Virus record (IMG/VR): IMGVR_UViG_3300021083_000077
Coordinates: 1-41,964 of that record
Origin: a virus
DNA: 41,964 nt
Reading direction: 5' to 3' (one strand)
Below, one piece after another: positions 5,168 to 40,750 of the stretch (positions within the stretch are counted from its first letter, which is position 1; every line of letters begins with the position of its first letter). The notes below the pieces were generated by a model. The model worked only from the letters and a program-made list of their open reading frames with translations, was not told where the DNA came from and ran no database searches. The translations under genes were made by a program, and so were the position numbers.

Positions 5168-5178
5168 TAAGGAAATTA
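5165..5178 (+). promoter_or_regulatory. RBS hairpin, hexaloop AAGGAA (CsrA-type site)
   Basis: TAAT (5165-5168), loop AAGGAA (5169-5174), ATTA (5175-5178), with the AUG at 5180. The stem is a weak four-pair AU helix, but the arrangement matches the other late starts. Confidence 0.4.
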
Positions 5179-24000: not shown

Positions 24001-24353
24001 TGTTAATACCATATGAAAATCGAAAAATATACATGGCATCCAAACCCGTTGACTTCCGCATGTCTATAGACGGCCTCTCGACATTCATCCAGAGAGAGAA
24101 GCACAACCACATTCACGATGGCAGCATCTATGTCTTTTATAACTCGCACCGTGACAAGATTAAGTGTCTATTCTGGGACCAAAATGGATTCGTACTGTAC
24201 TACAAGCGCCTGGACAAGTGTAAGTTCAAGTTCAAGGACATGCGCAAAGCTATTGAAGACATCACTGCCGAAGAACTGGATATTCTGCTGTCTGGGTTTG
24301 AGCCAGGTAACGTTGTTCGTCAGCCGAGGTTACTGAATAGTGTTGTAGGGTAA
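24000..24353 (+). CDS. tnpB: IS66-type accessory protein TnpB, 117 aa
   Basis: All landmarks of IS66 Orf2/TnpB are present: the N-terminus with IYMASKPVDFRMSIDGLSTFIQ, then GSIYVFYNSHRDKIKCLFWDQNGFVLYYKRLDKCKF, and ITAEELDILLSGF at the end. Length is normal. It is translationally coupled to TnpA (TAATG). No tnpC follows: tRNA genes begin within 50 bases, and I could not see IS66-like terminal inverted repeats. It is either a decayed element or a domesticated pair. Confidence 0.85.
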   Translation: MLIPYENRKIYMASKPVDFRMSIDGLSTFIQREKHNHIHDGSIYVFYNSHRDKIKCLFWDQNGFVLYYKRLDKCKFKFKDMRKAIEDITAEELDILLSGFEPGNVVRQPRLLNSVVG

Positions 24354-24806: not shown

Positions 24807-24881
24807 CCTTCTCAATTTTCATCTCAACTTGATCTAATATGTAGTAATTTTGCCAAGTTTTATGCTATTTTAATTGTAAGG

Positions 24882-24914
24882 CATCCAAGGATGGATGTTC
24901 GGCAAAGGATTGCC
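24882..24914 (+). promoter_or_regulatory. Two tandem AAGGAU hairpins in the terL leader (CsrA-type double site)
   Basis: CATCC-AAGGAT-GGATG (24882-24897) and GGCA-AAGGAT-TGCC (24901-24914). Both loops are the same hexamer and their GGA cores lie 18 bases apart (24889 and 24907), a spacing known to favour CsrA dimer bridging. The second loop serves as the Shine-Dalgarno of terL (AUG at 24920). Confidence 0.7.
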
Positions 24915-24919
24915 CCCTT

Positions 24920-26476
24920 ATGGATCAAGCATTACAGCGCAAGCTGGATAATGCAGAGGTTGCCGCTAAACTCAAGGGCAGTCTCCTGCTATTCATTCAA
25001 GCTTTCTTCCCGATACTGACCGGACGTGAATTTATCATATCGCGTCCTGTTGGTCGTGAATCTCATTTTATAACTATTTGTCGCGCTCTTACTAAGTGTA
25101 CTCGGCTCCAGGCTCTCAGGCTTCTGGTCAATGTTCCCCCTGGTCACGGCAAATCTGTCATTGTCAGCTTCTGGATAGCGTGGTGTATGGCCAAATGGCC
25201 GGACTGCAACTTCCTGTACATATCCTATTCTAAGACCTTGGCCTCTACTCATACCGATACGGTCAAGAAGATCATGTCTCTTAGCCAATACAAGGTGCTA
25301 TTCGATGTGCATTTACGCGAAGATTCTCAAGCTAAAGATTCGTTTACTACGACTGCGGGTGGAACTGTATCTGCGTTCGGCTCTGCTGGCTCCATTACTG
25401 GACGCAATGCTGGCCTTCCTGGTCTGGATAGATTCTCAGGAGCCGTAATCATTGATGATAGTCACAAGCCAGACGAGGTTCACTCGGATTTGATTCGAGA
25501 GGGTGTGATAACTAATTACCGAGAAACTATTCAACAGCGTCCTCGTGGCGTGAATGTTCCCATAGTCTTCATAGGTCAACGCTTACATGAGCAGGACCTG
25601 CCAGCATATTTTATTGCTGGTGATGATGGTTACGAATGGGAAAAGGTAATCATTAAATCATTAGATGATGCTGGCAATGCTCTTTATCCAGAAGCCTTCC
25701 CTCTTGACATGTTGCTTATACGCCAGAAGACAGACAAGTACGTATTTGCTGCTCAACATCAGCAAGAGCCTCAGCCATCTGGGGGAGGACTATTCATGCC
25801 AGAAGACTTCGTGCTCATGGATGTTGAGCCAGAATACTATATCACCTTTATAACTGCCGATACAGCCGAGACAGAAGACCTACGCAACGATGCTACAGTA
25901 TTCAGCTTCTGGGGAATGTACAATATTGAGACAGAAGGACGCAAGACAGGCGTAATGGGTTTGCACTGGATAGCATGTCGTGAGATTCGCGTAGAGCCAA
26001 AGGATCTTGAGAATGAGTTCATCGACTTCTGGCAGGAGTGCGCTAGACATGAAAACCCTCCCCTGATTGCTTATATTGAGAAGAAGTCTACCGGAGTAAC
26101 CCTACTATCTATCTTGAAGGACATGCGAGGCCTGAAGGTACGTGAGATTGAGCGTACCAGGATGTCAGGCTCTAAGAGTCAACGCTTCATCGACATTCAG
26201 CCCTACATTGCTAGTAAGCAGGTGTCTCTTCCTGCGAATGGTCGCCATACGGATATGTGCATCAATCACATGAAGAAGATTGCGAACAATGACTCACACG
26301 CGCATGACGACATTGCAGATACCTGTAGTGACGCAGTTCGTATTGCCCTGATTGAGCGCATTCTCTCGGTATATACATCCAAGGATATTAAGACACGTGA
26401 AGCTACGATGGCTGCCGTAAATCGCTATAACAACGTAGTGGAATTGAAGTTGAAAGCCTACAGGACAAGGAATTAG
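24920..26476 (+). CDS. terL: Terminase large subunit, 518 aa
   Basis: Walker A VPPGHGKS at about residues 72-79, YISYSKTLA, Walker B GAVIIDDSH at about 174-182, and a nuclease domain starting with the Asp of ITADTAETEDLRNDAT near 310. It cuts and translocates phage DNA into the prohead. Length and motif spacing are normal for P22-type/headful terminases. The leader carries the double hairpin. It is followed directly (2 bases) by the portal gene. Confidence 0.95.
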   Translation: MDQALQRKLDNAEVAAKLKGSLLLFIQAFFPILTGREFIISRPVGRESHFITICRALTKCTRLQALRLLVNVPPGHGKSVIVSFWIAWCMAKWPDCNFLYISYSKTLASTHTDTVKKIMSLSQYKVLFDVHLREDSQAKDSFTTTAGGTVSAFGSAGSITGRNAGLPGLDRFSGAVIIDDSHKPDEVHSDLIREGVITNYRETIQQRPRGVNVPIVFIGQRLHEQDLPAYFIAGDDGYEWEKVIIKSLDDAGNALYPEAFPLDMLLIRQKTDKYVFAAQHQQEPQPSGGGLFMPEDFVLMDVEPEYYITFITADTAETEDLRNDATVFSFWGMYNIETEGRKTGVMGLHWIACREIRVEPKDLENEFIDFWQECARHENPPLIAYIEKKSTGVTLLSILKDMRGLKVREIERTRMSGSKSQRFIDIQPYIASKQVSLPANGRHTDMCINHMKKIANNDSHAHDDIADTCSDAVRIALIERILSVYTSKDIKTREATMAAVNRYNNVVELKLKAYRTRN

Positions 26477-26478
26477 TC
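26464..26478 (+). promoter_or_regulatory. Portal RBS mini-hairpin
   Basis: GAC (26464-26466), loop AAGGAATTA, GTC (26476-26478), AUG at 26479. The three-pair stem is weak; ACAAGGA is also a linear CsrA-like sequence. Confidence 0.3.
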
Positions 26479-28641
26479 ATGGCACGCATTATTGCAAATA
26501 GACATATCAGTCAACTGGATAAGATTAAGCAGAACGTAGAGCAAGCGTATATCTACTTCAGACCTAACTATGAGCGATTTCATCAGTTCATGCGTTTCGT
26601 CTATAAGTCGACACTGACTGAGGATGACATCGCTGTACTGGCTACTCTAGGTAGGCCACAGATTGAATTCAACATGATGGAAGCTTATATCTCGCGCTTG
26701 CGTGGTGAGTTCAGTAGAATGGAGCCTGGCTTTATTATTCGCGCACAGGACGGTTATGAAAATGTGGACCCGAAGTTGTTATCTATACTTGAAGCGCATT
26801 TTCGATCAATCCTTGTTGATTCTGATAATGACGGCTTTAGCTATGATGTTTATACGGATTTGCTCATCGGCGGCTTCTCGGTCGTTGAGGTTTATACAGA
26901 CTACATCTCAGAAATGTCGATGGACCAGAAAATCTGCACCCAAAGAACCTTCGACCCCACCCTCTGTGGATTCGACCCTCTAGCTAGGAAGTCCCATAAG
27001 GGTGACGGTAGGTTTTGCTTTCAGTTCTTCCCTAAAGAGGCTGAGGAAGCAGTCGCTGAGTTCGGCTCAGATGTTCTGAAGGGGATGAAGTTTGCACGTA
27101 GCTTCTCTGGCTTTAACTGGAGTTACAGAGCAGCCAGGAAGGATATCGTCCTGATATGCGATTACTTCCAGAAAGATTTCAAAGAAGAGAAGATTACCAA
27201 GCTCACTAATGGTCGCGTAGTGAGTGTCAAGAATTACGAAGAGCTGATGGTTCTATGGGACCAGGCTGGCTACATCGAGCAACCGCCTCAGCCAGTCGGA
27301 AAGATGCGTAAGACCATGATTGAGAAGATTGAGCGTCATCGCTTCTCCGGCGCACAACTCATAGATGTTCAGAAAACCGACTTCAAGATGCTCCCCCTAA
27401 TCTTCTTTGACGGCAATAGTGCGGTATTGCGGGATAATAATGACTCTACAGCAGAGCAGATGTGCCGCCCCTATATCTATAATGTCAGGGACGCGCAGAG
27501 ACTTAAGAATTACGCAGGTCAGTCTTTGGCTAATGAGCTTGAGAACACGGTAGAGCACAAGTTCATCGCTTCCGTTGAATCAATTCCTGAAGACTACTTG
27601 GATGCTTACATCGATGTCCAGAAGCCAGGCACTCTCTTGTATAACGCTTTCTTTGAAGGCGACCCTGACCGTCCTCTTCAACCTCCTCGTGAGATTGTAC
27701 GTACACCAATTCCACCTGAGATTAGCGCAACCTTCCAAATGTCAGACAATCTGATTCAAGGAATACTGGGTTCGTATGACGCAGCGCTCGGCATTCAAAA
27801 CAATGAGCTATCAGGTGTAGCCATTATGCAGGGGGCCATGCACTCCAATGCCGCAGCAATGCCATACACCGTAGGCTTCATGAAGGGGCTTAACCGTGTC
27901 TGCCAAGTTATCCTTGACCTAATTCCTAAGTACTACGTTACCCCTCGCTCTCTGCCAATCGTCAAGCCAGATGGCAAAAGGTCTTACGAAGTTATTAATA
28001 AGCAAGGCTCTCCCTTTATGAATTACGATGCAATGAGCCTGGACGTTAAGGTTGAGGCTGGAGTCAACTTTGCAGTACAAAAGCAGATATCTCTCGAAAC
28101 CATTATCCAGTTGATGCAGACCTCAGAGGCGTTTGCTGCCTTCATCAATACTAAGGGCCTCGGGATTCTGTTGGATAACATTGATATCCGAGGTATCGAG
28201 GGATTACGCCAGGCCGCCAGTCAGTTCATGGAAGAGACTCAGCAGAAGCAAGCACAGATGGAGCAAATGGCGCAGCAACAAGCACAACAGCAGCTCGACC
28301 CCAAACAGGTCATGGCTATGCAAGCTCAGGCTGAAATGGCTAAGGTCGCGCAGAAGAAGGAAGCTGTTCAAGCTCAGACGCAAGTGGCGCTTACTAAGAT
28401 TGCTACCGATGATGCTGTCAAGAATAAGCAAGCTGATATCGAATTCCTCAAGGTCATGGCGGATATCCAAGGCAGCAATGTTGAAGCACAGTTGAAGCAA
28501 GAGAAGACTGATGCTGAGATGTCGCGCACTGCCGTGGATATGGCGATTAGTGTAAGCAGTCACCACCATGATATCAGGGAGTCCGACAGGGCGCATGAGT
28601 TAAGTAAGAAGGAGATGGCAAATGCCGATAAGAGTAAATAA
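26479..28641 (+). CDS. Portal protein, P22 gp1-like, 720 aa
   Basis: An N-terminal helix-rich region, then RPQIEFNMMEAYISRLRGEFSRMEPGF, YDVYTDLLIGGFSVVEVYTDY, FQFFPKE, and a GVAIMQGAMHSNAAAMPYTVGFMKGLNRV block match the P22 portal type. The last roughly 150 residues form a Gln/Ala/Lys-rich coiled coil (the barrel in P22). The dodecamer is the DNA entry and exit channel at one capsid vertex. 720 residues is near the P22 length (725). Confidence 0.93.
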   Translation: MARIIANRHISQLDKIKQNVEQAYIYFRPNYERFHQFMRFVYKSTLTEDDIAVLATLGRPQIEFNMMEAYISRLRGEFSRMEPGFIIRAQDGYENVDPKLLSILEAHFRSILVDSDNDGFSYDVYTDLLIGGFSVVEVYTDYISEMSMDQKICTQRTFDPTLCGFDPLARKSHKGDGRFCFQFFPKEAEEAVAEFGSDVLKGMKFARSFSGFNWSYRAARKDIVLICDYFQKDFKEEKITKLTNGRVVSVKNYEELMVLWDQAGYIEQPPQPVGKMRKTMIEKIERHRFSGAQLIDVQKTDFKMLPLIFFDGNSAVLRDNNDSTAEQMCRPYIYNVRDAQRLKNYAGQSLANELENTVEHKFIASVESIPEDYLDAYIDVQKPGTLLYNAFFEGDPDRPLQPPREIVRTPIPPEISATFQMSDNLIQGILGSYDAALGIQNNELSGVAIMQGAMHSNAAAMPYTVGFMKGLNRVCQVILDLIPKYYVTPRSLPIVKPDGKRSYEVINKQGSPFMNYDAMSLDVKVEAGVNFAVQKQISLETIIQLMQTSEAFAAFINTKGLGILLDNIDIRGIEGLRQAASQFMEETQQKQAQMEQMAQQQAQQQLDPKQVMAMQAQAEMAKVAQKKEAVQAQTQVALTKIATDDAVKNKQADIEFLKVMADIQGSNVEAQLKQEKTDAEMSRTAVDMAISVSSHHHDIRESDRAHELSKKEMANADKSK

Positions 28642-28659
28642 ACTAAATAGGAGAACAAT

Positions 28660-28920
28660 ATGTCTATAATTTTAACTTTAATAAGTAGTCATCTGTTAAC
28701 AGTAATTGAGAATGCTCTCGTAGCTGAAGAGCCTGAGATTGTAGCCATGATTGAGAAGGAACTTGAACTATTAATTTCCAAGATTCAATCACTGTTGTCT
28801 AGCAAGAGTCCAGCCGTAGCAGCGGTAGTCAATCCTGCTCTTACCGAAGCAGATACTATTGCTAATGCTGGCGTTGAAGCCGCAGGAGCCGCAATGTTGG
28901 GGGAGGCAGCAAATGGCTGA
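28660..28920 (+). CDS. Hypothetical protein between portal and scaffold, 86 aa
   Basis: A helical, amphipathic N-terminus (ILTLISSHLLTVIENALVAEEP) and Ala-rich C-terminus. TAGGAG lies upstream. The overlap with the next AUG suggests coupling. Possibly a minor virion or assembly protein; no family recognised. Confidence 0.6.
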   Translation: MSIILTLISSHLLTVIENALVAEEPEIVAMIEKELELLISKIQSLLSSKSPAVAAVVNPALTEADTIANAGVEAAGAAMLGEAANG

Positions 28921-29095
28921 GAAGAAGAAATGGATTCAAGGAGCTATCAAGCATCCAGGCGCTTTGCATAAGGAGCTGGGTGTGCCGATGGGCAAGAAGA
29001 TTCCAGCTAAGAAGTTGGCTAAAGCAGCTAAAGCTAGTGGTAAAGAAGGTCAGAGGGCTAGATTAGCTCAAACATTAAAGGGGATGAAGAAATGA
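28913..29095 (+). CDS. Small basic protein, 60 aa
   Basis: MAEKKKWIQGAIKHPGALHKELGVPMGKKIPAKKL... RARLAQTL. This KGALH..LGVp.gkkIP pattern recurs in phages near capsid genes; its function is not known to me. The start at 28913 overlaps the previous stop. Confidence 0.7.
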   Translation: MAEKKKWIQGAIKHPGALHKELGVPMGKKIPAKKLAKAAKASGKEGQRARLAQTLKGMKK

Positions 29096-29220
29096 AAGAT
29101 AAACCTAAAGGCGGTATGAAGAAGATGTCTGACAAGATGTCTAAAAGCATGGACATGAAAATGGCCAAGAAGCCTAAAAAGATGGCTAAAAAGAAGATGA
29201 TGAAGAAGGACTGTATGTAA
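29092..29220 (+). CDS. Very Lys/Met-rich small protein, 42 aa
   Basis: By count 17 Lys and 11 Met out of 42 residues, with repeated KKM and MKK units and one Cys near the end. It overlaps the preceding gene by four bases (ATGA). The composition is extreme and suits nucleic-acid binding. Function unknown. Confidence 0.55.
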   Translation: MKDKPKGGMKKMSDKMSKSMDMKMAKKPKKMAKKKMMKKDCM

Positions 29221-29293
29221 CTATTGAACTAAAAGTTAATAAGTAGATCATTTAGATTAATTGTTGCTATACTAGGTTCAAAGTAGTACGCGA

Positions 29294-29365
29294 CTGGCCG
29301 CGATGGATGCCAGGCAAAATACGCATCTATGCGGGATAAATAGTCGGGACTACCACGGATGGTAG
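29294..29365 (+). promoter_or_regulatory. Two ANGGA-loop hairpins in the scaffold-gene leader
   Basis: CTGGC (29294-29298), a 10-base loop ending in ATGGAT, GCCAG (29309-29313); and CTACC (29350-29354), hexaloop ACGGAT, GGTAG (29361-29365). Both stems are perfect five-pairs. A TG-extended -10 box (TGCTATACT, 29265-29273) lies upstream, so this leader may start a late transcript. Confidence 0.6.
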
Positions 29366-29389
29366 GTGATTACGGTCACACCGGAAACA

Positions 29390-30166
29390 GTGAGATTTCG
29401 AATGGATAAGGATATTGCAGAAGAATTGCAAGAGACTATTGTGGATGAAGCAGAAGCCCCTAAAGAGGCCGAAGCAACACAACCTGAAAAGCTGATTCCG
29501 GTTTCACGTGTTAATGAGCTTGTAAAAAAGGCTAAATATCATGGAGAGCGGAAAATGCAAGAGCAATTAGATGCGGCTAGACAGCAAATCGAGCAGCTAC
29601 AGGCGCAACAAGGTCAGCAACCAGTTCAGCAACCGCAAGGACAACAACCCCAGCAGCAGCAACAGCAGCAAGGGATGTCGCCAGAGCAGATGCAACAGGT
29701 TATGGCTATGGTGCAGAAGCAGCAGCAAGACCAGCAAGAGAAAGCGCATCAGGCACAGCTTGAAAAGGAAGTGAATGACGTAGCGGAACAGTATTTCGGA
29801 AAGCTTGCCCAAGGAAGGGAGGCATACGAGGACTTTGACGCTGTTACCGCAGATTTCGATCCGGCGGCGTTCCCACAATTAGTTTATTTAGCCACTCAGA
29901 CGGATAACACTGCTGCCATAATTTATGAGCTTCAGAAGAATCCGGCTAAGTTAGCTGCCCTATCTCACCTGGTGGATAAATCACCCGCCATGGCTAGAAA
30001 GGAGTTAGCGAAGCTTAGTCAGTCGATTAAGACTAATGATGAAGCTAGAAGTAACTTGCAAGAAGCTCAAGACCCCCTTAACCGTTTGAAGTCTTCCCCT
30101 GTGGGAACTGACAATGGTACGAAGGGTGTACGGGATTACAAACAGGCTTCCTATTTAAAGGCTTAG
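29390..30166 (+). CDS. Scaffolding protein, probable, about 258 aa
   Basis: It lies between portal and coat, the usual scaffold position. Highly helical and charged, with a Gln-rich stretch (about residues 65-105) and a helical C-terminus with basic residues. No sequence motif proves it. The start is uncertain: GUG at 29390 has GGAA upstream; AUG at 29402 or GUG at 29366 are alternatives. Scaffold guides coat assembly and is released or recycled. Confidence 0.7.
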   Translation: MRFRMDKDIAEELQETIVDEAEAPKEAEATQPEKLIPVSRVNELVKKAKYHGERKMQEQLDAARQQIEQLQAQQGQQPVQQPQGQQPQQQQQQQGMSPEQMQQVMAMVQKQQQDQQEKAHQAQLEKEVNDVAEQYFGKLAQGREAYEDFDAVTADFDPAAFPQLVYLATQTDNTAAIIYELQKNPAKLAALSHLVDKSPAMARKELAKLSQSIKTNDEARSNLQEAQDPLNRLKSSPVGTDNGTKGVRDYKQASYLKA

Positions 30167-30183
30167 TAATCCAACCGAATGGT

Positions 30184-30227
30184 CATGTCAGTTCTCTGAA
30201 TCAATGGATTGATGGAGAAGAGACATG
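30184..30227 (+). promoter_or_regulatory. Long start-sequestering hairpin of the coat gene
   Basis: CATGTC (30184-30189) pairs with GACATG (30222-30227), which includes the AUG. TTCTCTG (30192-30198) pairs with TGGAGAA, the Shine-Dalgarno (30213-30219, two G-U wobbles), and TCA/TGA closes a loop. The apical part reads ATCA-ATGGAT-TGAT (30200-30213), a hexaloop with ANGGA. The start is hidden unless the hairpin is opened. Confidence 0.6.
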
Positions 30228-31469
30228 GCCGTTCCTAATAACATTTTGCAACAAGTACAGACTTATCAATTATCCAACCTAGCGTATCTACAGAACTTAA
30301 ATTGCTTCGTAGCTACTGCTAATACAAAATTCAAAAACTTCGAGAAACTGACTGCTAATTTAGGCGACACAGTGACCTTTGATTTACCACCTAGGTTCAC
30401 AACTGCGCAGTCTTTGGTTGCTACATTCCAGTCTGCTGACCAACGTATCGAGAACCTTACTGTCGGCAATGCCATTAACGTGTCGTATGCATTCACTGCT
30501 CAACAATTTATCTTCAACGTTGAAGATTACATGGAGCAGTTCGGAAAATCGGCTGTCATGGAAATGTCTGCTGAGATTGAATCAGATGTGGCTACCGTTT
30601 GCGTAACTTCTACATATCGTTTCTACGGCGATGGCGTAACCCAAATTAACTCTTATGGTCAATTAGCCGCTGCCCTTGCAATGTTCCGTAACTATGGCGC
30701 TGCAAAGGACAACACCAAGTTCTATATCAGCGATATTGCACAGTCTGCAATCGTGAATACTGGCTTGAACCAATTCACTATGGACCGTAACAATAAATCC
30801 GCTATGTCATGGGATGTTGGTGATTTCGACCGTGCTGCGTTCTATGTATCCAACTTACTACCCGTGCATACTGCCGGAAATGTTGGTAATGAAGCTGCTG
30901 TGCTGACCGTAGTATCTGTAGTATTAGACGCTAACGGCGCTGTGGTTCAAATCGTATTCTCTGGCGCTTCTGATAGTGATGCTAATGCGATCAAAAAATA
31001 TGACAAAGGTCAGTTTAATGATGGCGTAAGTGGACAGCCAAATCTTAGATACCTCACCTTTATTGGTCACAAGGTTTCTAGTAACCCTGTTCAATTCCAA
31101 GTTACAGCAGATGCTGCTGCTACAAGTGGTGGGCAAGTTACAGTTAATGTTTATCCTCCTTTGCAAGCTAACTCAGGTAATGACCAAAACTTGAACTACG
31201 CAATTCAGCCTGGTATGCAAGTTTCCTTCTTGCCTTCACACAGAGCTGGCGTAATCACTGCTGGTAATCCTTTGTTCCTTGGTATGCCAATGTTGCCGGA
31301 AGAAGTACCGTTCCCAACAGGTAATGAAGTTGACCCTGATACTGGCGTTTCAATGCGCATGTATTATGGTAGTTTGTTCGGCCAGAACCAAAGGGGCATG
31401 ATACATGATGCCATATGGGGGAAGACACTGGTCCCAGAATATGCCATGAGCGTCATATTTCCCTTATAA
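30225..31469 (+). CDS. Major coat protein, P22 gp5-like, 414 aa
   Basis: MAVPNNILQQVQTYQLSNLAYLQNLNCFVATANTKFKNFEKL... GDTVTFDLPPRF... and a long HK97-type fold with FTAQQFIFNVEDYMEQFGKSAVMEM match P22-like coats. Length is near 430. It forms the icosahedral shell. The RNA leader is the long hairpin. The stop (31467-31469) is directly followed by the promoter of the endonuclease gene. Confidence 0.9.
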   Translation: MAVPNNILQQVQTYQLSNLAYLQNLNCFVATANTKFKNFEKLTANLGDTVTFDLPPRFTTAQSLVATFQSADQRIENLTVGNAINVSYAFTAQQFIFNVEDYMEQFGKSAVMEMSAEIESDVATVCVTSTYRFYGDGVTQINSYGQLAAALAMFRNYGAAKDNTKFYISDIAQSAIVNTGLNQFTMDRNNKSAMSWDVGDFDRAAFYVSNLLPVHTAGNVGNEAAVLTVVSVVLDANGAVVQIVFSGASDSDANAIKKYDKGQFNDGVSGQPNLRYLTFIGHKVSSNPVQFQVTADAAATSGGQVTVNVYPPLQANSGNDQNLNYAIQPGMQVSFLPSHRAGVITAGNPLFLGMPMLPEEVPFPTGNEVDPDTGVSMRMYYGSLFGQNQRGMIHDAIWGKTLVPEYAMSVIFPL

Positions 31470-31497
31470 TTGACAACATTGCATAATCAGATACAAT
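31470..31497 (+). promoter_or_regulatory. Promoter of the first HNH endonuclease gene
   Basis: TTGACA (31470-31475, perfect), 16-base spacer, TACAAT (31492-31497). RNA would start near 31504. It starts one base after the coat gene stop. Confidence 0.65.
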
Positions 31498-31526
31498 TCT
31501 CTTGATTTAATTTGATGGAGAATTGT
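31493..31526 (+). promoter_or_regulatory. RBS-sequestering hairpin overlapping the -10 box
   Basis: ACAATTCTC (31493-31501) and GAGAATTGT (31518-31526) are perfect nine-base arms. The right arm includes most of the Shine-Dalgarno GGAGAA of the gene at 31529. The left arm lies before the expected RNA start, so only read-through RNA can fold it. Confidence 0.6.
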
Positions 31527-31528
31527 AG

Positions 31529-32452
31529 ATGGTTGCGAAGTGTGGTGTCAGTTGCAGCAAATGTGGTGTTAATGAAAAAATTCTAGGTAGCTCATGGTGT
31601 AGTAATTGTATAAACACTAGAAAGCGAGCGCTTAGGGCTGAGAAGAAGGCTAAAGGTATTTCTCTTTTTGGTTCCAACGCTAATCCTATTTGCAATTCAT
31701 GCGGCTCTAATAAAGAGCTTAATTACATGAATGACAGTTTATGCAAGAAATGCAGGAGCGAGGCTAATAAACTGCGTAGACAACAAAGACGAATCGAGGA
31801 AGGAAAGCCTCCTCATGGTTCAGGAAGAAGCTTGAAATGCAGTAAGTGCGGCGAAATTAAAGACGAACAACATGTGTCCAGCGGATATTGCCGGAAGTGT
31901 TGCTCCGAAAGAAGGAAGCTAGATACTGTATTGATGCGAGAGCATTTAGGGCTGAAGCCATGGGGTTCTGGTCGCAAAGATACTTGTTGTCGATGTGATA
32001 AGATTAAAGAAAATTCTAAGCTTGGATATTGTCACAGTTGTCATAGGCAGCTGGATCGCGAATGGCGATTAGCTAGTGGCAGAACTAAAAGAGCCAGAAC
32101 GGGTAAATGTAGATGCGGGCAACCTTTTGCAAGTTACAGTCACTGTTACTGTGTAGATTGTGCATCAAAATGGAGACGAGAATATCTAGCTCGAAGAACT
32201 GACATAAAGGACAGATTTAATAAGCAACATAATGAGAGGAGACGAAAAGATCCAAACATTAGGCTTAAAGAATATGTGAGAGGAGTTACTAACACCTATA
32301 TTAAAAATGGATGGTTGATAAGGCAGCCATGCGAAATTTGCGCAACTGATATAAATGTTGAGGCTCATCATGATGACTATAGCAAACCCATTGATGTACG
32401 ATGGTTATGTAAAATTCATCACGCAGAGCATCACAAGAACGAACAGAAGTAA
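31529..32452 (+). CDS. HNH endonuclease with multiple zinc ribbons, 307 aa
   Basis: The N-terminal 200 residues carry repeated CxxC pairs (CSKC, CSNC, CNSC, CKKC, CSKC, CRKC, CCRC, CHSC...), the pattern of zinc ribbons in free-standing phage endonucleases. The C-terminal HNH domain runs from CEIC near residue 268 through VEAHHDDY.KPIDVRWLCKIHHAEHH. It lies between coat and the next virion gene with its own promoter. It is probably a homing endonuclease that spreads itself during mixed infection. It is no part of the virion. Confidence 0.88.
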   Translation: MVAKCGVSCSKCGVNEKILGSSWCSNCINTRKRALRAEKKAKGISLFGSNANPICNSCGSNKELNYMNDSLCKKCRSEANKLRRQQRRIEEGKPPHGSGRSLKCSKCGEIKDEQHVSSGYCRKCCSERRKLDTVLMREHLGLKPWGSGRKDTCCRCDKIKENSKLGYCHSCHRQLDREWRLASGRTKRARTGKCRCGQPFASYSHCYCVDCASKWRREYLARRTDIKDRFNKQHNERRRKDPNIRLKEYVRGVTNTYIKNGWLIRQPCEICATDINVEAHHDDYSKPIDVRWLCKIHHAEHHKNEQK

Positions 32453-32483
32453 CCTTTATCGGGCGACATGAAGTTGCCCTAAC

Positions 32484-32497
32484 TTATAAGGACATAA
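32484..32497 (+). promoter_or_regulatory. RBS hairpin, hexaloop AAGGAC (CsrA-type site)
   Basis: TTAT (32484-32487), loop AAGGAC, ATAA (32494-32497), AUG at 32499. Confidence 0.45.
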
Positions 32498-32498
32498 A

Positions 32499-33317: not shown

Positions 33318-33323
33318 GGAATT
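33312..33323 (+). promoter_or_regulatory. RBS mini-hairpin with AAGGA
   Basis: AAT (33312-33314), loop TAAGGA, ATT (33321-33323), AUG at 33327. Weak stem. Confidence 0.25.
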
Positions 33324-33326
33324 GTC

Positions 33327-34031
33327 ATGGCCTACACGACTTTACAGCTAATTAATAATGCCTACTACGAGTCTGGCATAGTATCTAGAGGCTTTGAAAC
33401 GGTGTCAGGCCAGCAAGCCACGGATGGCCTACAATTCTTAAATGATTTAATAGACGATAAGACTGTGGATAACGGTCTTATCCCCTATTACACGCAGTAT
33501 GATTTTATAGCAGTGATTGGTCAGGAGAAGTATTACATTCCTAACCTAATCAACATTGACACCTTTGTCTTCTACATTGATACGGTTAGATACCAAACGG
33601 ATAACAGAGGTCGCAGAGAATACTTCGGTACGTCTCGTGCTGATGATATTCAGTCGTTGCCTGGAAGCTGGCATCTTGAGCGGTGTTTAGGCGGTGCGAA
33701 TCTATTTATGTACTTCTTGCCAGACCAGGCATTCCCTTTAGAAATATGGGGACAATTTCGGTTGGCTGAGGTTGTGATTAATCAAGACCTGTCGCTGACC
33801 TTAGACAGATTTTACATTAACTACTTGAGATATGACTTAGCGGTCAGACTGTGCGCTGAGTACAACTACTCTGTGCCTCCAGGCGTTCAGAAGGCTTATG
33901 ACAAGTACGTGATTGATATTAGCAAGAAGTCAGGACCGATGGACCTGAAATTGACGAAGCTGAGTAGTCTACAGCGTAGAGGCAGTATAAATTATGCACA
34001 AGTCAATCTTGGTCATGGCTGGGTGTCATAG
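33327..34031 (+). CDS. Head-completion/tail accessory protein, P22 gp4-like, 234 aa
   Basis: YTTLQLINNAYYESGIVSRGFETVSGQQATDGLQFLNDLIDDKTV is the gp4 N-terminal pattern (often 't..eli..AlrliGv...g...s..e...Al..Ln.ml..w'). It closes the portal vertex after packaging and links portal to gp10. The order matches P22 (coat, gp4, gp10). Confidence 0.85.
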   Translation: MAYTTLQLINNAYYESGIVSRGFETVSGQQATDGLQFLNDLIDDKTVDNGLIPYYTQYDFIAVIGQEKYYIPNLINIDTFVFYIDTVRYQTDNRGRREYFGTSRADDIQSLPGSWHLERCLGGANLFMYFLPDQAFPLEIWGQFRLAEVVINQDLSLTLDRFYINYLRYDLAVRLCAEYNYSVPPGVQKAYDKYVIDISKKSGPMDLKLTKLSSLQRRGSINYAQVNLGHGWVS

Positions 34032-34046
34032 TATGTCCACATGGTA

Positions 34047-34075
34047 TTGCATGATGGATGGAATAAGGCTATACT
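34047..34075 (+). promoter_or_regulatory. Promoter of the endonuclease VII-like gene
   Basis: TTGCAT (34047-34052), 17-base spacer, TATACT (34070-34075). RNA would start near 34082. Confidence 0.6.
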
Positions 34076-34099
34076 GGTTTCTTTAATCAGGAGAAACCA
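34075..34099 (+). promoter_or_regulatory. RBS-sequestering hairpin overlapping the -10 box
   Basis: TGGTTTCT (34075-34082) and AGAAACCA (34092-34099), eight perfect pairs with loop TTAATCAGG. Part of the Shine-Dalgarno AGGAGAA is in the right arm. As at 31493, the left arm is lost from RNA starting at the local promoter. Confidence 0.6.
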
Positions 34100-34726
34100 A
34101 TGAGATATACATTTTACGAATGCCCTAATCATGGAAGATTAGAAGTTACGGCTTATTTTCGAGCTGGAGTGTTGGATTACCGATGCAAGGAATGTGATTC
34201 GCAAGTAATTTTTAAAGAGATAATCGTTTGCAAGTATCATGGCGAGTTACCAGCTGATTTAATTACGACCAAGAATCAATGTCGAACTTGTCATCGTGAA
34301 TCGGCCAATAGAAGAAGAAATAATAATCGGGAAGAATTTAACGCTAAACAAGCATTAGACAGAGAGCTAAATCCAGAGAAATGGGATGCAATTTACAAGC
34401 GAGCCTATTCTCGGCTTAGACATAATAAAGGTCAGGATTTAAGTTTGCTTAAGGTGTGTAATGCTCGAAGAATTACACTTGAGCAATATCAGGAATTAGT
34501 TAAGAGCCAAGACAATAAATGCGCAATATGTTTACAGGAAGAGACATGTATTGATGGAAGGTCTAAAGATAAGAGGCCAAGACGATTATCAATTGACCAT
34601 TGTCATAAAACCAATTCGGTTCGTGGTCTGCTCTGCCAAGGATGTAATGTTGCAATAGGACGTTTCAAAGACGATACTGAACTCATGGAGAGAGCAATAA
34701 ATTATGTCAAGAAACATTATGGCTAA
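34100..34726 (+). CDS. Recombination endonuclease VII-type HNH endonuclease, 208 aa
   Basis: The C-terminal part has CAIC near residue 141, LSIDHCHKTNSVRGLLCQGCN (about 162-183), then IGRFKDD...L..A..Y. That is the endonuclease VII (T4 gp49) HNH-like domain. The N-terminal half holds Cys pairs (CKEC, CRTC) as zinc elements. It is a free-standing gene between gp4 and gp10 with its own promoter and a regulated ribosome site; a homing endonuclease is likely. Confidence 0.9.
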   Translation: MRYTFYECPNHGRLEVTAYFRAGVLDYRCKECDSQVIFKEIIVCKYHGELPADLITTKNQCRTCHRESANRRRNNNREEFNAKQALDRELNPEKWDAIYKRAYSRLRHNKGQDLSLLKVCNARRITLEQYQELVKSQDNKCAICLQEETCIDGRSKDKRPRRLSIDHCHKTNSVRGLLCQGCNVAIGRFKDDTELMERAINYVKKHYG

Positions 34727-34743
34727 TGATTGTTAGGATGGAT

Positions 34744-34755
34744 ATCAAGGATGAT
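34744..34755 (+). promoter_or_regulatory. gp10-like gene start in a mini-hairpin, loop AAGGAU
   Basis: ATC-AAGGAT-GAT; the loop holds the Shine-Dalgarno and the first bases of the AUG (34751). Three-pair stem, weak. Confidence 0.3.
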
Positions 34756-36247
34756 TTTCACACCGAATGCCAAACAGATACCAGTCAATATCGTAGGAAG
34801 CAGTTCCTTCGGTCGTCACCCTATCATCTCGGATGAGCGAACATTTAATATGTTTATCTCCGATGATTGGCTGCTAAACTTTGCTGGGTATCATGAAGCT
34901 GCTTATCTTCTTCCCGTAGGTGAAGAGGGTAGGGGGCTTTTCCATTCAACTCGCGGTAACTTCATGATTGCGGTTATTGCTAGTAACGTCTATCGCATTA
35001 ACCCTGGATTGGGTTCAACGTTTCTCTATACCATTAGCTCTAGCACGGGCGAAGTCTTTATGGATGAGAACCTAAGCTCGCAGATTTGTATCGTGGATGG
35101 GACAGCAACTGGATACATTTATAATTACGATCCTGCAATTAATGCAGTTGCTCCGATTAACTTTACTGGAACGTCACAAACCTTCATTCCAAACTATGTG
35201 TCTTATCATAATACTTACTTCCTATTCGGTAATGGCATTGAAGATTCAAGCGGAGCGCAGTGGTACATTTATCAAAGTGGGTTTAATCCTACTGATTTAA
35301 GTGGACCTTTCGACCTGGCATTTGTAGAGGTCTTGACGCTACAGACTAAGCCTGACTTTGCCAAAGCAGTAGTACGAATACCTGGGAAGGGTAACAACGT
35401 CCTGGTCATGGGTTCTACCGTTTCTGAGATATGGAGTAACGTAGCGGGTTTACAAATCTATCAACGTTATGCATCCGTGAACATTGACTTTGGAGTGGCT
35501 AGTGTTGCTACCATAGCATCAATGGATGACCAAATTGTATGGTTAGGAATCAACGAGAAGTCATCCCCTTCTATAATGGTTTTCAATGGAAGCCAAGCGG
35601 TAGGATTATCTACGGATGGTATTGATTATCTTTTAAGCTTTGTGCAGTTCCCAGAGCAATCGACTGCCATGTTTTATCGAGAAGACGGGCATGTATTTTA
35701 CATCCTGACCTTCTTTAACCCAGTTGATAACTTCACCATTATGTATGACTTCACCACGCAGAAGTTCTTCGATATTACAGACTGGGATTTCACATATCAC
35801 CCTGCTCGACAGATTGCCTACTTCAACAATGAGATTTACTTCGTCTCTTTGAAGCAGGGATCTATCATGCACTTGAGTACAGACTTAACAAATATATCTA
35901 CTGGGCCAGGAATTGAGTATGAGATACCCAGAGTTAGGAAATGCGATACATTCAGATTGCCAGGTGGTGACAGGTTCATCGTTAACCAGTTTGCGTTTAC
36001 GATTCAAAATGGTGTTGATCCAGATATTGACACGACTAACCAGCCTAGGATTGACGTGACCATCTCTAAGAACGGCGGCGAGACTTACGGTAACGCTGTC
36101 TCGTATTACATGCATACGACTGGAAATTACTTCAATCAGCCTCGCTTTAACAAGCTGGGGCAGGCGAATCAATTCACGATTCAGATGCGCTTCTGGGGCT
36201 TTGATGCTGTAGTTTGTACAGCAGGGTTTCTGGAGGTATATCAGTGA
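34751..36247 (+). CDS. Packaged-DNA stabilization/tail hub protein, P22 gp10-like, 498 aa
   Basis: MIFTPNAKQIPVNIVGSSSFGRHPIISDERTFNMFISDDWLLNFAGYHEAAYL... GEEGRGLFHSTRGNFMIAVI is the gp10 N-terminus. It plugs the portal and joins the needle or tail parts. Start at 34751 because the earlier in-frame start lacks a ribosome site. The stop overlaps the next GUG. Confidence 0.9.
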   Translation: MIFTPNAKQIPVNIVGSSSFGRHPIISDERTFNMFISDDWLLNFAGYHEAAYLLPVGEEGRGLFHSTRGNFMIAVIASNVYRINPGLGSTFLYTISSSTGEVFMDENLSSQICIVDGTATGYIYNYDPAINAVAPINFTGTSQTFIPNYVSYHNTYFLFGNGIEDSSGAQWYIYQSGFNPTDLSGPFDLAFVEVLTLQTKPDFAKAVVRIPGKGNNVLVMGSTVSEIWSNVAGLQIYQRYASVNIDFGVASVATIASMDDQIVWLGINEKSSPSIMVFNGSQAVGLSTDGIDYLLSFVQFPEQSTAMFYREDGHVFYILTFFNPVDNFTIMYDFTTQKFFDITDWDFTYHPARQIAYFNNEIYFVSLKQGSIMHLSTDLTNISTGPGIEYEIPRVRKCDTFRLPGGDRFIVNQFAFTIQNGVDPDIDTTNQPRIDVTISKNGGETYGNAVSYYMHTTGNYFNQPRFNKLGQANQFTIQMRFWGFDAVVCTAGFLEVYQ

Positions 36248-36576
36248 TTATCCCAACCTTCGTGAATGGTATGGCTGTGAATAAAGACGGCTATCTTACA
36301 CCGCAATTGCAGCTGTATAATGACCAATTGAATAGCGTTTTGCGTAATGGTCTATCAAATAATGGCTGGACGTTGCCTGTGGTAACTCAGGCGCAGTTGA
36401 CGGCTATCATGGCATTGCCGAGCAGTCAGGCTCTTCCTGACGGAACTATGTGGGCGGTCCAAGATACCCCTGACTTACCAGCCCCACAGTACGCAGAAAT
36501 AGTCGTGCTATTGGATGATGGCAGTGGCTCTGGTACGAGCGCATTATATAAGTTAACGAAGACAGCTTACCCATAA
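36244..36576 (+). CDS. Hypothetical virion-cluster protein, GUG start, 110 aa
   Basis: GGAGGT six bases before GUG, and the GUG overlaps the gp10 stop (GTGA). Sequence has MAVNKDGYLTPQLQLYNDQLNSVLRNGLSNNGWTLP, resembling short phage tail proteins that recur as 'glutamine-type fibre' segments. It sits where P22 has the needle gene gp26, but is far shorter and without a coiled coil. Role unknown. Confidence 0.6.
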   Translation: MIIPTFVNGMAVNKDGYLTPQLQLYNDQLNSVLRNGLSNNGWTLPVVTQAQLTAIMALPSSQALPDGTMWAVQDTPDLPAPQYAEIVVLLDDGSGSGTSALYKLTKTAYP

Positions 36577-36583
36577 GGATATG
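36572..36583 (+). promoter_or_regulatory. RBS mini-hairpin, loop AAGGAU
   Basis: CAT-AAGGAT-ATG, followed by AG and the AUG at 36586. Three-pair stem; same loop as the strong members. Confidence 0.3.
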
Positions 36584-36585
36584 AG

Positions 36586-37290
36586 ATGAGCATATTAGGC
36601 AATTTATTTGGCAGCGGAAATCAGCGCAGCCCACAGGATGCTGCTAACAAGTATCTTAATCAGATTCCTGGCGTGGGACATGATGCCTATGACCCCTATA
36701 TCAATCAGGGTAGGGAGTCAGGCGCTAATGCTCATAGTCAATATGAGTCGATGATTAATGATCCACAGGGCTTCATTAACAATATCCTGAATGGCTACAA
36801 GGAGTCTGAAGGGTATCAGTACCAGAAGGGTCAGCTTGAGAAATCGCTGTCAAATACGGCTGCTGCTGGAGGTATTAGAGGCACTCCGCAAGACCAGCTC
36901 AATCAGGGTGAAGGCGTACAGAAGCTACTGTCAGCCGACCAGCAACAGTGGTTGACGAATGTCCTAGGTCGATATGACAAGGGGCTAGGTGGCGAGGAAG
37001 TTGAGGCTGAACGGGGATACAATGCTTCTGGCAATCTAGCTGATATCCTTGGAGGCAATCTTAATCAGCAAGGCGAGATAGCATTTAATGACCAGCAACA
37101 GAAGAACAAGAGCCGCAGTGACACTATTAATGCTTTGATTAAGGCATTTGGTACGGCTGGTGGATTCTTAGTTGGAGGCCCTGCTGGAGCTGCTGCTGGC
37201 GGAGGATTAGCCGATTTATTCAGCCACAATGGCAGAGATGCTGGCCCGATGGATGGCAGTTCATATAAACCATGGCATAACCCAGGTTAG
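36586..37290 (+). CDS. Putative DNA ejection protein (gp7-like position), 234 aa
   Basis: A Gln/Asn/Gly-rich helical middle (about 60-160), then a C-terminal Gly/Ala-rich stretch (AFGTAGGFLVGGPAGAAAGGG), which can insert in a membrane. Position after gp10 and before two long helical proteins is that of the P22 ejection proteins gp7, gp20 and gp16. Family not recognised; role inferred. Confidence 0.6.
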   Translation: MSILGNLFGSGNQRSPQDAANKYLNQIPGVGHDAYDPYINQGRESGANAHSQYESMINDPQGFINNILNGYKESEGYQYQKGQLEKSLSNTAAAGGIRGTPQDQLNQGEGVQKLLSADQQQWLTNVLGRYDKGLGGEEVEAERGYNASGNLADILGGNLNQQGEIAFNDQQQKNKSRSDTINALIKAFGTAGGFLVGGPAGAAAGGGLADLFSHNGRDAGPMDGSSYKPWHNPG

Positions 37291-37299
37291 GAGAATACT

Positions 37300-38490
37300 A
37301 TGGCGATTAATAATTGGGGTCACTATTTAAACGCACCCTTACTGGATACTCCGGCTGCTAACCTATTCGAGAACCTTCTTAAAGGTTACAAGATGGGTAG
37401 AGAGCCTGCACAGATTAAGGCGAAAGAGGAAGAGCAGCAACTTGCCAATCATTTGAAGCGGTTAGATGTCGAGCATAAGCCTAAAGAGTATGAGCTTAAT
37501 GATAAGCATCAAGCTCTTGCTAATTCTATCAGTGAAGAAGCATATAAGCATTTGCCGGAGCAGAGACGGCAGGAAGCGGCTAAGAATCAGGCTTATATTG
37601 ATAAGGCTAATCGTCCCGCCCAATTAAAGGGTGCGTTAGCGGAAGCATTTCAATTGAGAAATCAGTTAGATCCTAATTCTCCTAACTACGAACGCGATTT
37701 ACGTGAAGTCAATAATTATATTGCTAAATTAGGTACGATGCCTGGAGGGGTTCAAGTAAGTGGTTCACCTGGTGGCGAATTTAATATCTCTGTTGGTGGT
37801 GGAGCTAAAGGAGAGACAGCTAATATTGCAGGACTTCCCGCTCTACCCAAAGGTCAAGTGTGGTTATATGACGATAATGGTCAGGTTAAAGGTCGTGGCC
37901 AACCATATTCAGAAGCAGAGAAAAAGGAAGTTGGTGGTCGAACAGCGTTTAATATTTATCAGAAATTTATTACAGATGCGCAGGCTCCATATTCTGGACG
38001 TGGTTCCAATGAGAAGTTCGAGAATGATGTTTTAGCCTATGAAACTGATCCTGCGGCTAAGGATAGGATTGATAAACTACTTGCCGCAGACAAGCTGTTA
38101 TTTAGTGCCACAGTTAAGGAAGAGGCTACATTGGGTGGAGCGAATACGAACCAGGCTTACAATCGAATTACGCACTCATTAAAGACCTCTGAAATATATC
38201 CAAAGCTACAACAATTTGCACAATATCAGTTGCCGTCTGGGTATGCCAAAGCTCCTAATGATATCTTTAGGAATGTTCTGAATGAAGGTACAGAAGCTGG
38301 TGCTAAGATTCCTGCTTTCAAAGCTTATTACACGAAGCAAGGTGAACCGATTGAATCTCCAGAGCAAGCAGCCCAAAAGAAGGCTCTATCCAAAGGTGAT
38401 GCGGCCAAAGCTAAGGCTAAGGCGGCTTATCTAGCTATGACTCCTGCGCAGCGTTTGGCTTATAAGAAACAGCATTTAGGGGATAAGTGA
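37300..38490 (+). CDS. Putative DNA ejection/internal virion protein, 396 aa
   Basis: Lys/Glu/Ala/Gln-rich helices with little hydrophobic character and a Gly-rich middle (about 145-170: MPGGVQVSGSPGGEFNISVGGG). The C-terminus is Ala/Lys-rich (GDAAKAKAKAAYLAMTPAQRLAY). Between two putative ejection proteins; no family recognised. Confidence 0.6.
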   Translation: MAINNWGHYLNAPLLDTPAANLFENLLKGYKMGREPAQIKAKEEEQQLANHLKRLDVEHKPKEYELNDKHQALANSISEEAYKHLPEQRRQEAAKNQAYIDKANRPAQLKGALAEAFQLRNQLDPNSPNYERDLREVNNYIAKLGTMPGGVQVSGSPGGEFNISVGGGAKGETANIAGLPALPKGQVWLYDDNGQVKGRGQPYSEAEKKEVGGRTAFNIYQKFITDAQAPYSGRGSNEKFENDVLAYETDPAAKDRIDKLLAADKLLFSATVKEEATLGGANTNQAYNRITHSLKTSEIYPKLQQFAQYQLPSGYAKAPNDIFRNVLNEGTEAGAKIPAFKAYYTKQGEPIESPEQAAQKKALSKGDAAKAKAKAAYLAMTPAQRLAYKKQHLGDK

Positions 38491-40628
38491 TGGCTGATTA
38501 TAAAGCTACTGCTGAAGACTTTGCTCAATGGGATAAGGAAGCTTATATTCCCAGTCAGGAAGACTTTGACGAATGGGATCAGGAAGACAATCAATCTTCA
38601 ATACCTCCTATTCATGATGGTCAGCCTGAAGGTCAGCCACAAGGGCAGCCTCAAGCGCAGGAGCAACAAACACCTTCCAAGAACATTTTTGGGGCAGAAG
38701 AGCCTAACTATCCTGGATTCAAAGGTCTTAAGGAAAGCAGTACGGCATTATTAAGCAATGCGCTGAAAGGTGGCATAGGATTTTTATCTAATCCCGTGAA
38801 AAGTGTCGGCGCAGAAGGACTGGGCGAAGAGTTTGAGAAGGATCCATTAGGTGAAGCGGCTCATGCGGCCGGACAACTTGGAGTAGGAATAGCTGAGAGT
38901 GGTAAGGATTTAATTAACTTCGGCCTGTCAGCATTAACTCCTTTGTCTGAAATCGGTGGCATTCCAAAGGGCGGTCATCCGGTTAAACTTCAGATACCTG
39001 AGAATACTGGGTTGCAACATGCACTGGGATTAGACTCGAATAGGAAAGGCGATGAATTTATTAAGAAGATTCCTGATATAGCGGCACTAGCTTATGGTGG
39101 AACCTCCTTGATTAAGAAGGGATATAAACTTCTCGACAAGGCTCCTCCTTTGACTAAAGAGCGTAAATTTCAAAACGCTTTGAAGGAAGAAGAGATTAAG
39201 TCTAAGAAAGCTGAAGATCAACTTGCTAAGGAACGTAAGCAGATTGAGGAAGAGCAGAAGCGCAAGTACGCCGCTATTGGCCCCGAGGGGATGCTACCTC
39301 AAGGAGAAAAGATTGGAAGCCTTTCACCAGTAGACCTAGATATTGAAGCAATAGCTAAGGAAGCTAAGATTGAACGCCTTAAACCTACCGCTGAACTTCC
39401 TGAAGAGCATTTAGGAGAAATTCCTGGCCCTCCTGATACTCAGTCATTAATTGACGCTAAATTATCTGCCGCCAAGAAAGCTCGTGCAGATGTTAAAGAA
39501 TCATTAGGGATTCTCGATCATCCTACAATGAAGGCTGGTGAAATAATTCAAAAAAGCATAAAGGATTTAAAAAAATCTGGCGAAGATTTATACAAGTCGG
39601 GCCGTGATATTTTAGTTGATAAAAAAGTTAAAGTTGACAATTCAAAAGAGATTAAAGATATAACCAAGGATCTTAATCAAATTTCGGCTAATGAAGGTAT
39701 TTTTCAAGGTACCGTTTCTGAACGAGACGCTCTGCAAGCTAAAATTGATGCGCTAGAAGGAGAGTCAATTGAAGCCAGCGATGTCTTTGACCTTCAGCGC
39801 ACACTTGAGAAAATGGCTAAAGATACACGTAAGAAGCAATACTCAGGTAAAGCAAATGATACCGAATTTAAAAATCTTGGCATTTTAGCAGAGCGATATG
39901 ACAGTCATGCCGCAGCTTTAGCAAACAGACTTGAGTCAGTTGGTGGAGATGAAGTTCAAGCTATTTTTAAAGAAGCCAATAAAGTTTGGAAAACTTATCA
40001 TGATTTAAAAAAACATTCTGTGGGAAAACCAGCGTTAAAGAAAGGTGAAATTCCATCAGACACTTTACTTGCCATTGCAAATAAGGAACAGGGTAATGAA
40101 TTTTTTCAAGCATTGACTAATGTTTATCCTGAATTAAAGAAACATCTTTTGGCTGCTCACGTAGGTGCGACAAGCGTTAATAAGTTATTAGACCCTACCA
40201 CTGAAGTAAGGAAATATTTAGAGGCGCTTCCTGAAGTCGCGGATAAAGTTAATTCTTTACAGCACGCTTTAACTGAAGTTAAGGAAGGTTATCGATATGG
40301 CGCGAGGGAAGAAAAGAAATACAATGCATTAGTTAAGTCAATGAAAGATGCCGCGAAAAGGCAAGCGGCTAGGAAGAAAAGCATTCAAGAGATTGACAAA
40401 GCCACTAAGCAAGCCAAACTACTTCGAGAGACTTCGGACAAAGTAGCTGCTAAACTTAAGCAAGAGGAAGCGCAAGGGCATAATACCTCCAAGATTAAGG
40501 AAGATTTGGCAAGACGTAAGCGTGAATATTATAATCAAGAGACTAAGATCGATGTCTTGAAGAAGAATCTCTTGAAACTTGGTACAGCTAAACTTGGTTA
40601 CGAAGCTTTCTTCAAAAAGAAAAATTAA
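38490..40628 (+). CDS. Large coiled-coil virion protein, probable ejection/pilot protein, 712 aa
   Basis: An acidic N-terminus, a PQGQPQAQEQQ-rich linker near residue 50, a few Gly/Ala-rich segments (about 80-200), and very long Lys/Glu/Leu coiled coils from about 220 to the end. No Zn or catalytic motif is seen. Position (last of three) and structure suit a P22 gp16-like ejection protein delivered with the DNA. AUG at 38490 overlaps the previous stop (TGATG). Confidence 0.65.
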   Translation: MADYKATAEDFAQWDKEAYIPSQEDFDEWDQEDNQSSIPPIHDGQPEGQPQGQPQAQEQQTPSKNIFGAEEPNYPGFKGLKESSTALLSNALKGGIGFLSNPVKSVGAEGLGEEFEKDPLGEAAHAAGQLGVGIAESGKDLINFGLSALTPLSEIGGIPKGGHPVKLQIPENTGLQHALGLDSNRKGDEFIKKIPDIAALAYGGTSLIKKGYKLLDKAPPLTKERKFQNALKEEEIKSKKAEDQLAKERKQIEEEQKRKYAAIGPEGMLPQGEKIGSLSPVDLDIEAIAKEAKIERLKPTAELPEEHLGEIPGPPDTQSLIDAKLSAAKKARADVKESLGILDHPTMKAGEIIQKSIKDLKKSGEDLYKSGRDILVDKKVKVDNSKEIKDITKDLNQISANEGIFQGTVSERDALQAKIDALEGESIEASDVFDLQRTLEKMAKDTRKKQYSGKANDTEFKNLGILAERYDSHAAALANRLESVGGDEVQAIFKEANKVWKTYHDLKKHSVGKPALKKGEIPSDTLLAIANKEQGNEFFQALTNVYPELKKHLLAAHVGATSVNKLLDPTTEVRKYLEALPEVADKVNSLQHALTEVKEGYRYGAREEKKYNALVKSMKDAAKRQAARKKSIQEIDKATKQAKLLRETSDKVAAKLKQEEAQGHNTSKIKEDLARRKREYYNQETKIDVLKKNLLKLGTAKLGYEAFFKKKN

Positions 40629-40684
40629 TTAGCCAGCATCCAAAGATATGCGCAAACGAAAGCACATAGAATAGATATTAACAT
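40625..40684 (-). CDS. Possible tiny antisense membrane peptide, 19 aa
   Basis: MLISILCAFVCAYLWMLAN on the minus strand, with GAGGGG before its AUG. Hydrophobic. No promoter is evident, and it sits in a short gap between plus-strand virion genes. Weak support. Confidence 0.25.
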   Translation of the reverse strand: MLISILCAFVCAYLWMLAN

Positions 40685-40687
40685 GAT

Positions 40688-40722
40688 TACCCCTCTTTAA
40701 AATGGACATTATATAGAGGGTA
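40688..40722. repeat. Inverted repeat before the tail-collar gene
   Basis: TACCCCTCT (40688-40696) and AGAGGGTA (40715-40722), eight pairs with one bulged C. It may be an attenuator or a terminator of the preceding operon. Confidence 0.4.
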
Positions 40723-40735
40723 TGGATAAAACACA

Positions 40736-40750
40736 AGCAAAGGATTTGCT
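40736..40750 (+). promoter_or_regulatory. RBS hairpin AGCAA-AGGAU-UUGCU (CsrA-type site)
   Basis: AGCAA (40736-40740), loop AGGAT, TTGCT (40746-40750), with the AUG at 40751 directly after. Opening the innermost A-T pair gives an AAGGATT loop that contains AAGGAU. Confidence 0.6.

Follow-up and report, generated by a model that had tools for sequence, protein, structure and literature searches.

The late (virion) mRNAs of a family of podoviruses associated with Legionella carry candidate CsrA-binding hairpins on their ribosome-binding sites. We describe these hairpins in one member of the family, IMG/VR virus record IMGVR_UViG_3300021083_000077 (41,964 nucleotides, the whole of which is hereafter called the window), which also encodes a CsrA of its own, and in its relatives. 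The hairpins are real and conserved, and their specificity is threefold: for late genes, for the CsrA motif and for this phage family. They are probably best explained by late translation being gated by the CsrA of the bacterial host, with the phage csrA gene as a later addition.

Hairpins at late-gene starts

In these hairpins the A(N)GGA motif sits in the loop and overlaps the ribosome-binding site or the start, most loops beginning at positions -10 to -15 (farther out, at -21 to -25, for the coat gene). All hairpins given here lie on the plus strand of the window. Five-pair stems enclose AAGGAU loops at the starts of gene 1227 (1211-1226, TTTAA-AAGGAT-TTAAA) and tail gene 2032 (2016-2031, GTTTA-AAGGAT-TAAAC), while four-pair stems enclose an AAGGAA loop at the start of gene 5180 (5165-5178, TAAT-AAGGAA-ATTA) and an AAGGAC loop at that of gene 32499 (32484-32497, TTAT-AAGGAC-ATAA). 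The coat gene has the hairpin AUCA-AUGGAU-UGAU (30200-30213), and the collar/tail gene at 40751 has the AAGGAU hairpin AGCA-AAGGATT-TGCT (40736-40750). All of these, as well as two hairpins at the gene of the terminase large subunit (terL), are present where the original prediction, made from the letters of the window, had placed them. It had overlooked a five-pair ACGGA hairpin (5643-5659, TACAC-ACGGATT-GTGTA) at the likely start (5659) of a GH108 endolysin.

Other predicted hairpins fared less well. Two had been assigned to the scaffold gene: one, CUACC-ACGGAU-GGUAG (29350-29365), abuts the GUG start and has a conserved ANGGA loop, whereas the other (CGCA-UCUA-UGCG, around 29322) is conserved but lacks the motif. 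The latter is one of two further conserved elements around the scaffold hairpin, namely CGCA-N4-UGCG upstream (29322-29333) and GUGA...UCAC over the start codon (29366-29379). Contrary to the prediction, the window lacks a flush hairpin at gene 785 (some relatives have one) and also at the portal start, 26479. At the predicted places 33327, 34751 and 36586 the window has weak hairpins of one to three flush pairs (AUC-AAGGAU-GAU at 34744-34755 for start 34751; CAU-AAGGAU-AUG at 36572-36583 for start 36586); the stems at 36586 and 33327 are longer in relatives, the former reaching nine pairs in genomes G002 and G005, and that at 34751 has six pairs in G005. The early starts described as free of hairpins are indeed so. 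A nine- to ten-pair AAGGAU hairpin (18006-18029) is intergenic, about 100 nucleotides upstream of the open reading frame at 18128, and lies beside no start codon.

Two suitably spaced candidate sites are clear in the terL leader only. Its upstream hairpin has seven pairs (24880-24899, GGCATCC-AAGGAT-GGATGTT) and its downstream hairpin, GGCA-AAGGAU-UGCC (24901-24914), lies on the Shine-Dalgarno sequence and is near-invariant among relatives. The distance from the last A of one loop to the last A of the other is 18 nucleotides in 17 of 19 variants, the spacing reported to suit a single CsrA dimer best when it bridges two sites. A single dimer may bridge both terL loops. The upstream loop often lacks GGA: it reads ANGGAN in two variants (the window included) and AGGA[CU] in six, and has no GGA in 11.

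Frequency, motif specificity and controls

The original prediction had gauged chance as 1 in 4^5 for a five-pair stem at a fixed place. This is the wrong test, and we used instead permutation of the 5' flanks among sites, with a threshold of at least four pairs flush on the loop. In the window alone, 8 of the 18 late ANGGA sites reach this threshold (2.4±1.4 expected) and 1 of the 12 early ones (0.7 expected). This excess is suggestive; the decisive evidence comes from the family. Genome-wide statistics were obtained for 12 genomes of the window's close family, in which 62 of the 159 late ANGGA ribosome sites carry such hairpins, against 13.5±3.2 expected. At early ANGGA sites there is a weak excess at most (16 of 145, against 9.1±2.7 expected). 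Starts were called with a simple program of our own, and some are misplaced, including the GTG start of the scaffold gene; the counts therefore omit the scaffold hairpin and are conservative in that respect. When late hairpins are de-duplicated to one example per inner-stem sequence, 34 are left, against 8.4±2.7 expected and a maximum of 21 in 5000 permutations.

The excess depends on the motif. Where a late ribosome site has GGA but not the A at the head of ANGGA, which CsrA needs, hairpins are not in excess (4 of 83, against 6.5 expected); the early equivalents give 16 of 120 (8.2 expected). A register control points the same way: the excess of six-nucleotide loops peaks exactly on ANGGAN, with 41 hairpins against 0-9 at other offsets. 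Four unrelated control phages have no hairpin excess (4 observed, 3.9 expected), and stretches of Legionella chromosome have little or none (5 against 3.8). The sites without the leading A and the control phages together led us to reject the idea that ribosome sites lie in loops as a generic feature. Similarly, stems of five or more pairs are not in excess at 80 other viral loci with a csrA (9 against 8.6), and we rejected the idea that any phage with a csrA has such hairpins.

Two further patterns were seen among relatives. In a sister clade (G024, G026, G027 and G032, with coat proteins about 67-68% identical), late hairpins are not in excess and a few early genes have ANGGA hairpins of five to seven pairs. 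A 276-amino-acid recE-like exonuclease, which is not a virion protein, has varying ANGGA hairpins in its leader in G002, G005, G010, G019 and G031 (for example UUUCC-AUGGA-GGAAA), and none in the window.

Compensatory changes in relatives

Leaders of the close clade keep the same hairpins with altered stems, and compensatory changes occur in five of them, which is the stem covariation that the original prediction had proposed to look for. The scaffold hairpin provides the clearest series of stems (CUACC/GGUAG, CAACC/GGUUG, CUGCC/GGCAG, CUAUC/GAUAG and CUAAC/GUUAG): the ACGGA loop is constant, every cell of the alignment is paired, and both sides have changed in three of the five pairs. For gene 36586, the short stem of the window (CAU/AUG) corresponds to UUAUUUCAU/AUGAAAUGG in G002 and to UUAUAGUAU/AUACUAUGA in G005. 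The coat, 36586, collar and terL leaders all have covariation scores above those of all 500 shuffles and of all slid partners, and the scaffold leader likewise beats shuffles and slid partners. As the shuffle test is inflated by relatedness, more weight falls on the control with slid partners and on how varied the pair types are. Sequences with another loop length or without pairing were left out of the alignments for scaffold (two), gene 36586 (one) and collar (one), and the terL alignment covers 15 of 19 variants; paired percentages for these leaders are thus slightly flattering. The coat alignment includes all 18 variants.

The phage csrA gene

As the original prediction stated, the window encodes a full-length CsrA. 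The gene (14682-14491, minus strand, 63 amino acids) belongs to a leftward cluster of small genes, and its product, the only CsrA of the window, matches PF02599 (E 3e-22; 74.5 bits for a cut-off of 27) over positions 2-52 of 53. The RNA-binding residues are present by inspection, in the N-terminal LILTRR strand and in VHREE (...VTVHREEVW). Within the leader, UACAAGGAGAUUAUC, a CAAGGAG resembles a CsrA site and may serve autoregulation.

The reading frame starts from AUA at 14682, preceded by AAGGAGAUUAUC, and the stretch from the preceding stop to the conserved LILTRR has no ATG, GTG or TTG in frame. Among 82 phage or Legionella CsrAs compared, 80 start with ATG and none with AUA. Such a start suggests weak expression, with which it is at least compatible, and leaves membership of the CsrA family, as judged by sequence, unaffected. 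Low production of the protein may be deliberate, or the gene may have decayed recently or contain a sequence error. A search of 45 other family records found no csrA, not even in four close relatives whose end repeats suggest completeness. We therefore rejected csrA as a family-wide gene, and the window copy looks like a later addition. Since the hairpins occur in dozens of relatives and csrA in none of these 45 records, the sites are independent of the csrA of the window.

Hosts and the likely ligand

A close relative is found in a contig of Legionella maceachernii (L222-L224, G046:C26, about 48.8-88.7 kb), where it looks integrated, amid genes that appear to be bacterial; inspection by eye revealed no integrase gene either in this copy or in the window. 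Among 369 gammaproteobacterial genomes sampled, L. maceachernii is the only one with a strong match (none in the 368 others). Two distant relatives, with 53-54% coat identity, occur in two further Legionellaceae genomes, and a match in a 'Desulfosporosinus' metagenome-assembled genome (L171) is probably a misbinned phage contig. One of the two distant Legionellaceae relatives, a prophage integrated in a 3.3-Mb contig (terL 62% identical), has strong late hairpins of its own, with stems of at least five pairs at 6 of its 20 late sites, terL included, against 1.0 expected. As the distant-prophage sequences had no part in framing the idea, they provide an independent test.

A host CsrA could serve as ligand in L. 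maceachernii, which has seven CsrA-family matches, one of them 67% identical to the phage CsrA. In L. pneumophila, CsrA binds A(N)GGA loops in the fleQ and lqsR leaders (PMC5338858) and represses transmission traits until relieved by LetA/S (PMC13227487). Because the hairpins are conserved without csrA and the known carriers are Legionellaceae, the ancestral ligand would have to be a host CsrA. That host CsrA is the ancestral ligand and that life-stage gating is the purpose of the hairpins both seem likely to us from these comparisons. A phage-encoded sponge RNA, that is, a cluster of ANGGA hairpins like RsmY/Z, was also considered and rejected, as none was found in ten genomes and Rfam gave two tRNAs only.

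Proposed mechanism and alternative explanations

If host CsrA gates late translation, a CsrA dimer, ancestrally that of the host, would bind the ANGGA loops and keep ribosomes off the terL, scaffold, coat and collar/tail genes, and probably off those for lysis. Repression would last while CsrA is free, in the replicative phase of Legionella, and would be released when Rsm RNAs titrate CsrA in the transmissive phase, so that particle production would track the life-stage switch of the host. The csrA acquired by the window phage would either supply extra repressor at an early stage of infection or shift the threshold. In a more far-reaching version, the virion module would be wired to the developmental master repressor of the host, with assembly and lysis only when Legionella is transmissive, and some members would use a CsrA of their own to override or extend the gate; this version is tentative, and we believe it somewhat less readily than its contrary.

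Several points weigh against host-gated translation. Virion genes without hairpins in the window include those for the portal and those at 37300 and 38490, many of the stems are short and A/U-rich, and single-sequence folding is unexceptional (z from -2.6 to +1.0); folding energy was uninformative. The terL upstream loops without GGA (AUGAU, AAGAU or AUGAC in 11 of 19 variants) would be poor CsrA sites. Moreover, AAGGA is also a strong ribosome site, and the preference for a leading A could partly reflect expression level. The host evidence consists of one close, integrated-looking copy and two distant ones, from which we infer the hosts of the metagenomic members, including the window. Finally, our proposals that CsrA binds these leaders, represses them and later releases them, as well as those on timing and on what the phage csrA does, are deduced from sequence.

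Four other explanations have to be weighed. The original prediction took the CsrA of the phage itself as the cognate and main regulator, operating an early/late translational switch. An intact csrA on the opposite strand, among small genes and apart from the late block, fits this idea, but the hairpins are conserved in a family whose 45 other records searched have no csrA, the AUA start departs from the ATG of nearly all CsrAs compared, and other csrA-bearing viral loci have no excess of long hairpins; we consider this explanation unlikely. Another, unrecognised RNA-binding protein of phage or host with a preference for ANGGA loops is less likely again. A looser loop preference would account for the terL upstream hairpin, which retains its stem and its spacing while often losing GGA, yet the loop, the register and the need for a leading A agree with the consensus for CsrA, which is known to work in this manner in Legionella.

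The hairpins could also serve translation independently of CsrA, by showing the ribosome site in a loop, by acting as RNA thermometers or by protecting the mRNA. In most cases the loop does double as the Shine-Dalgarno sequence, but neither late sites without the leading A nor the control phages and Legionella chromosome stretches show an excess, and we regard such roles as improbable. As to chance or selection of sites by eye, the sites were indeed picked by eye, their stems are short and the excess in the window alone is moderate; the permutation, register, motif and relative-based tests nevertheless exclude chance and leave this explanation hardly any weight. Gating by host CsrA is thus the explanation that we retain as probable.

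Genome organisation and family

The window is probably a complete, permuted genome, as the gene at 40751 crosses the origin of the record as a 662-amino-acid frame. Head genes are of P22 type and in P22 order, according to phrog matches: terL (24920-26476, plus strand; phrog_38, E 8e-80), portal, scaffold (29366-30166, plus strand, GTG start; phrog_8865, E 1.9e-5) and major coat protein (30225-31469, plus strand; phrog_283, E 2e-19). A P22_Cro-like protein is encoded too, as are RecE/RecT, SSB, a DnaB-like helicase with a replication initiator, and a Prs/NAMPT pair. In this pair (9241-11584), a ribose-phosphate pyrophosphokinase adjoins a nicotinamide phosphoribosyltransferase; the same NAD-salvage pair occurs in relatives G005 and G019, and is reminiscent of phage NAD-restoring counter-defence pairs. 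An IS66 Orf2 (TnpB)-like gene occupies 24000-24353, immediately ahead of two phage tRNAs (Asn, Met). Two endonuclease-like genes (31529-32452 and 34100-34726) sit as insertions within the late block; neither has a flush ANGGA hairpin, as one would expect of mobile insertions.

By terL, nine relatives are 78-86% identical, and by coat protein 80 loci are 60-88% identical; INPHARED contains no close phage. The P22-like podoviruses Vibrio phage 1.211.A and Shewanella phage X14 have a similar order of head genes and P22-type coat and portal proteins, but their coat proteins are just 23-24% identical and they show no excess of ANGGA hairpins.

Comparison with known CsrA systems

According to a review (PMC7366521), 30 of 2517 phage genomes have a csrA, and neither a function nor phage targets are given there for these alleles; mobile examples include the rsmM phages of Pseudomonas and csrT of a Legionella integrative and conjugative element. 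Like such phages, plasmids and conjugative elements, the window phage has a csrA allele, but unlike the phages described there, it belongs to a family with a conserved set of phage target sites, found mostly in relatives without csrA. In Serratia ATCC 39006, CsrA is reported to affect prophage activation (Wilf et al. 2013, as cited in PMC7366521), so that a host regulator of the CsrA family would act on a prophage, as we propose here, although the citing passage mentions no set of late-gene leader sites. The proposed input, the biphasic switch of Legionella (LetA/S, Rsm RNAs and CsrA), has no link to phages in the papers that we found. Our searches, mostly confined to the open literature (most subscription journals lay outside it), turned up no account of late genes of phages with CsrA sites, nor of the targets or function of a phage csrA.

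CsrA, RsmA and RsmE repress leaders such as those of glgC, hfq and hcnA by way of A(N)GGA loops that cover the ribosome site. The hairpins described here resemble these targets in having an ANGGA loop on the Shine-Dalgarno sequence, a stem conserved in its pairing and, at terL, a candidate double site with the spacing of dual-site targets. They differ in being sites predicted from sequence, in belonging to phage virion genes, and in concerning a large share of the late module at once. A coordinated and conserved set of CsrA-type sites spans much of the late module of a phage; if the proposed mechanism is true, this set would act as a post-transcriptional switch through which late genes respond to the physiology of the host, and would explain how a phage whose host lives inside cells could make its lysis coincide with release from the protozoan.

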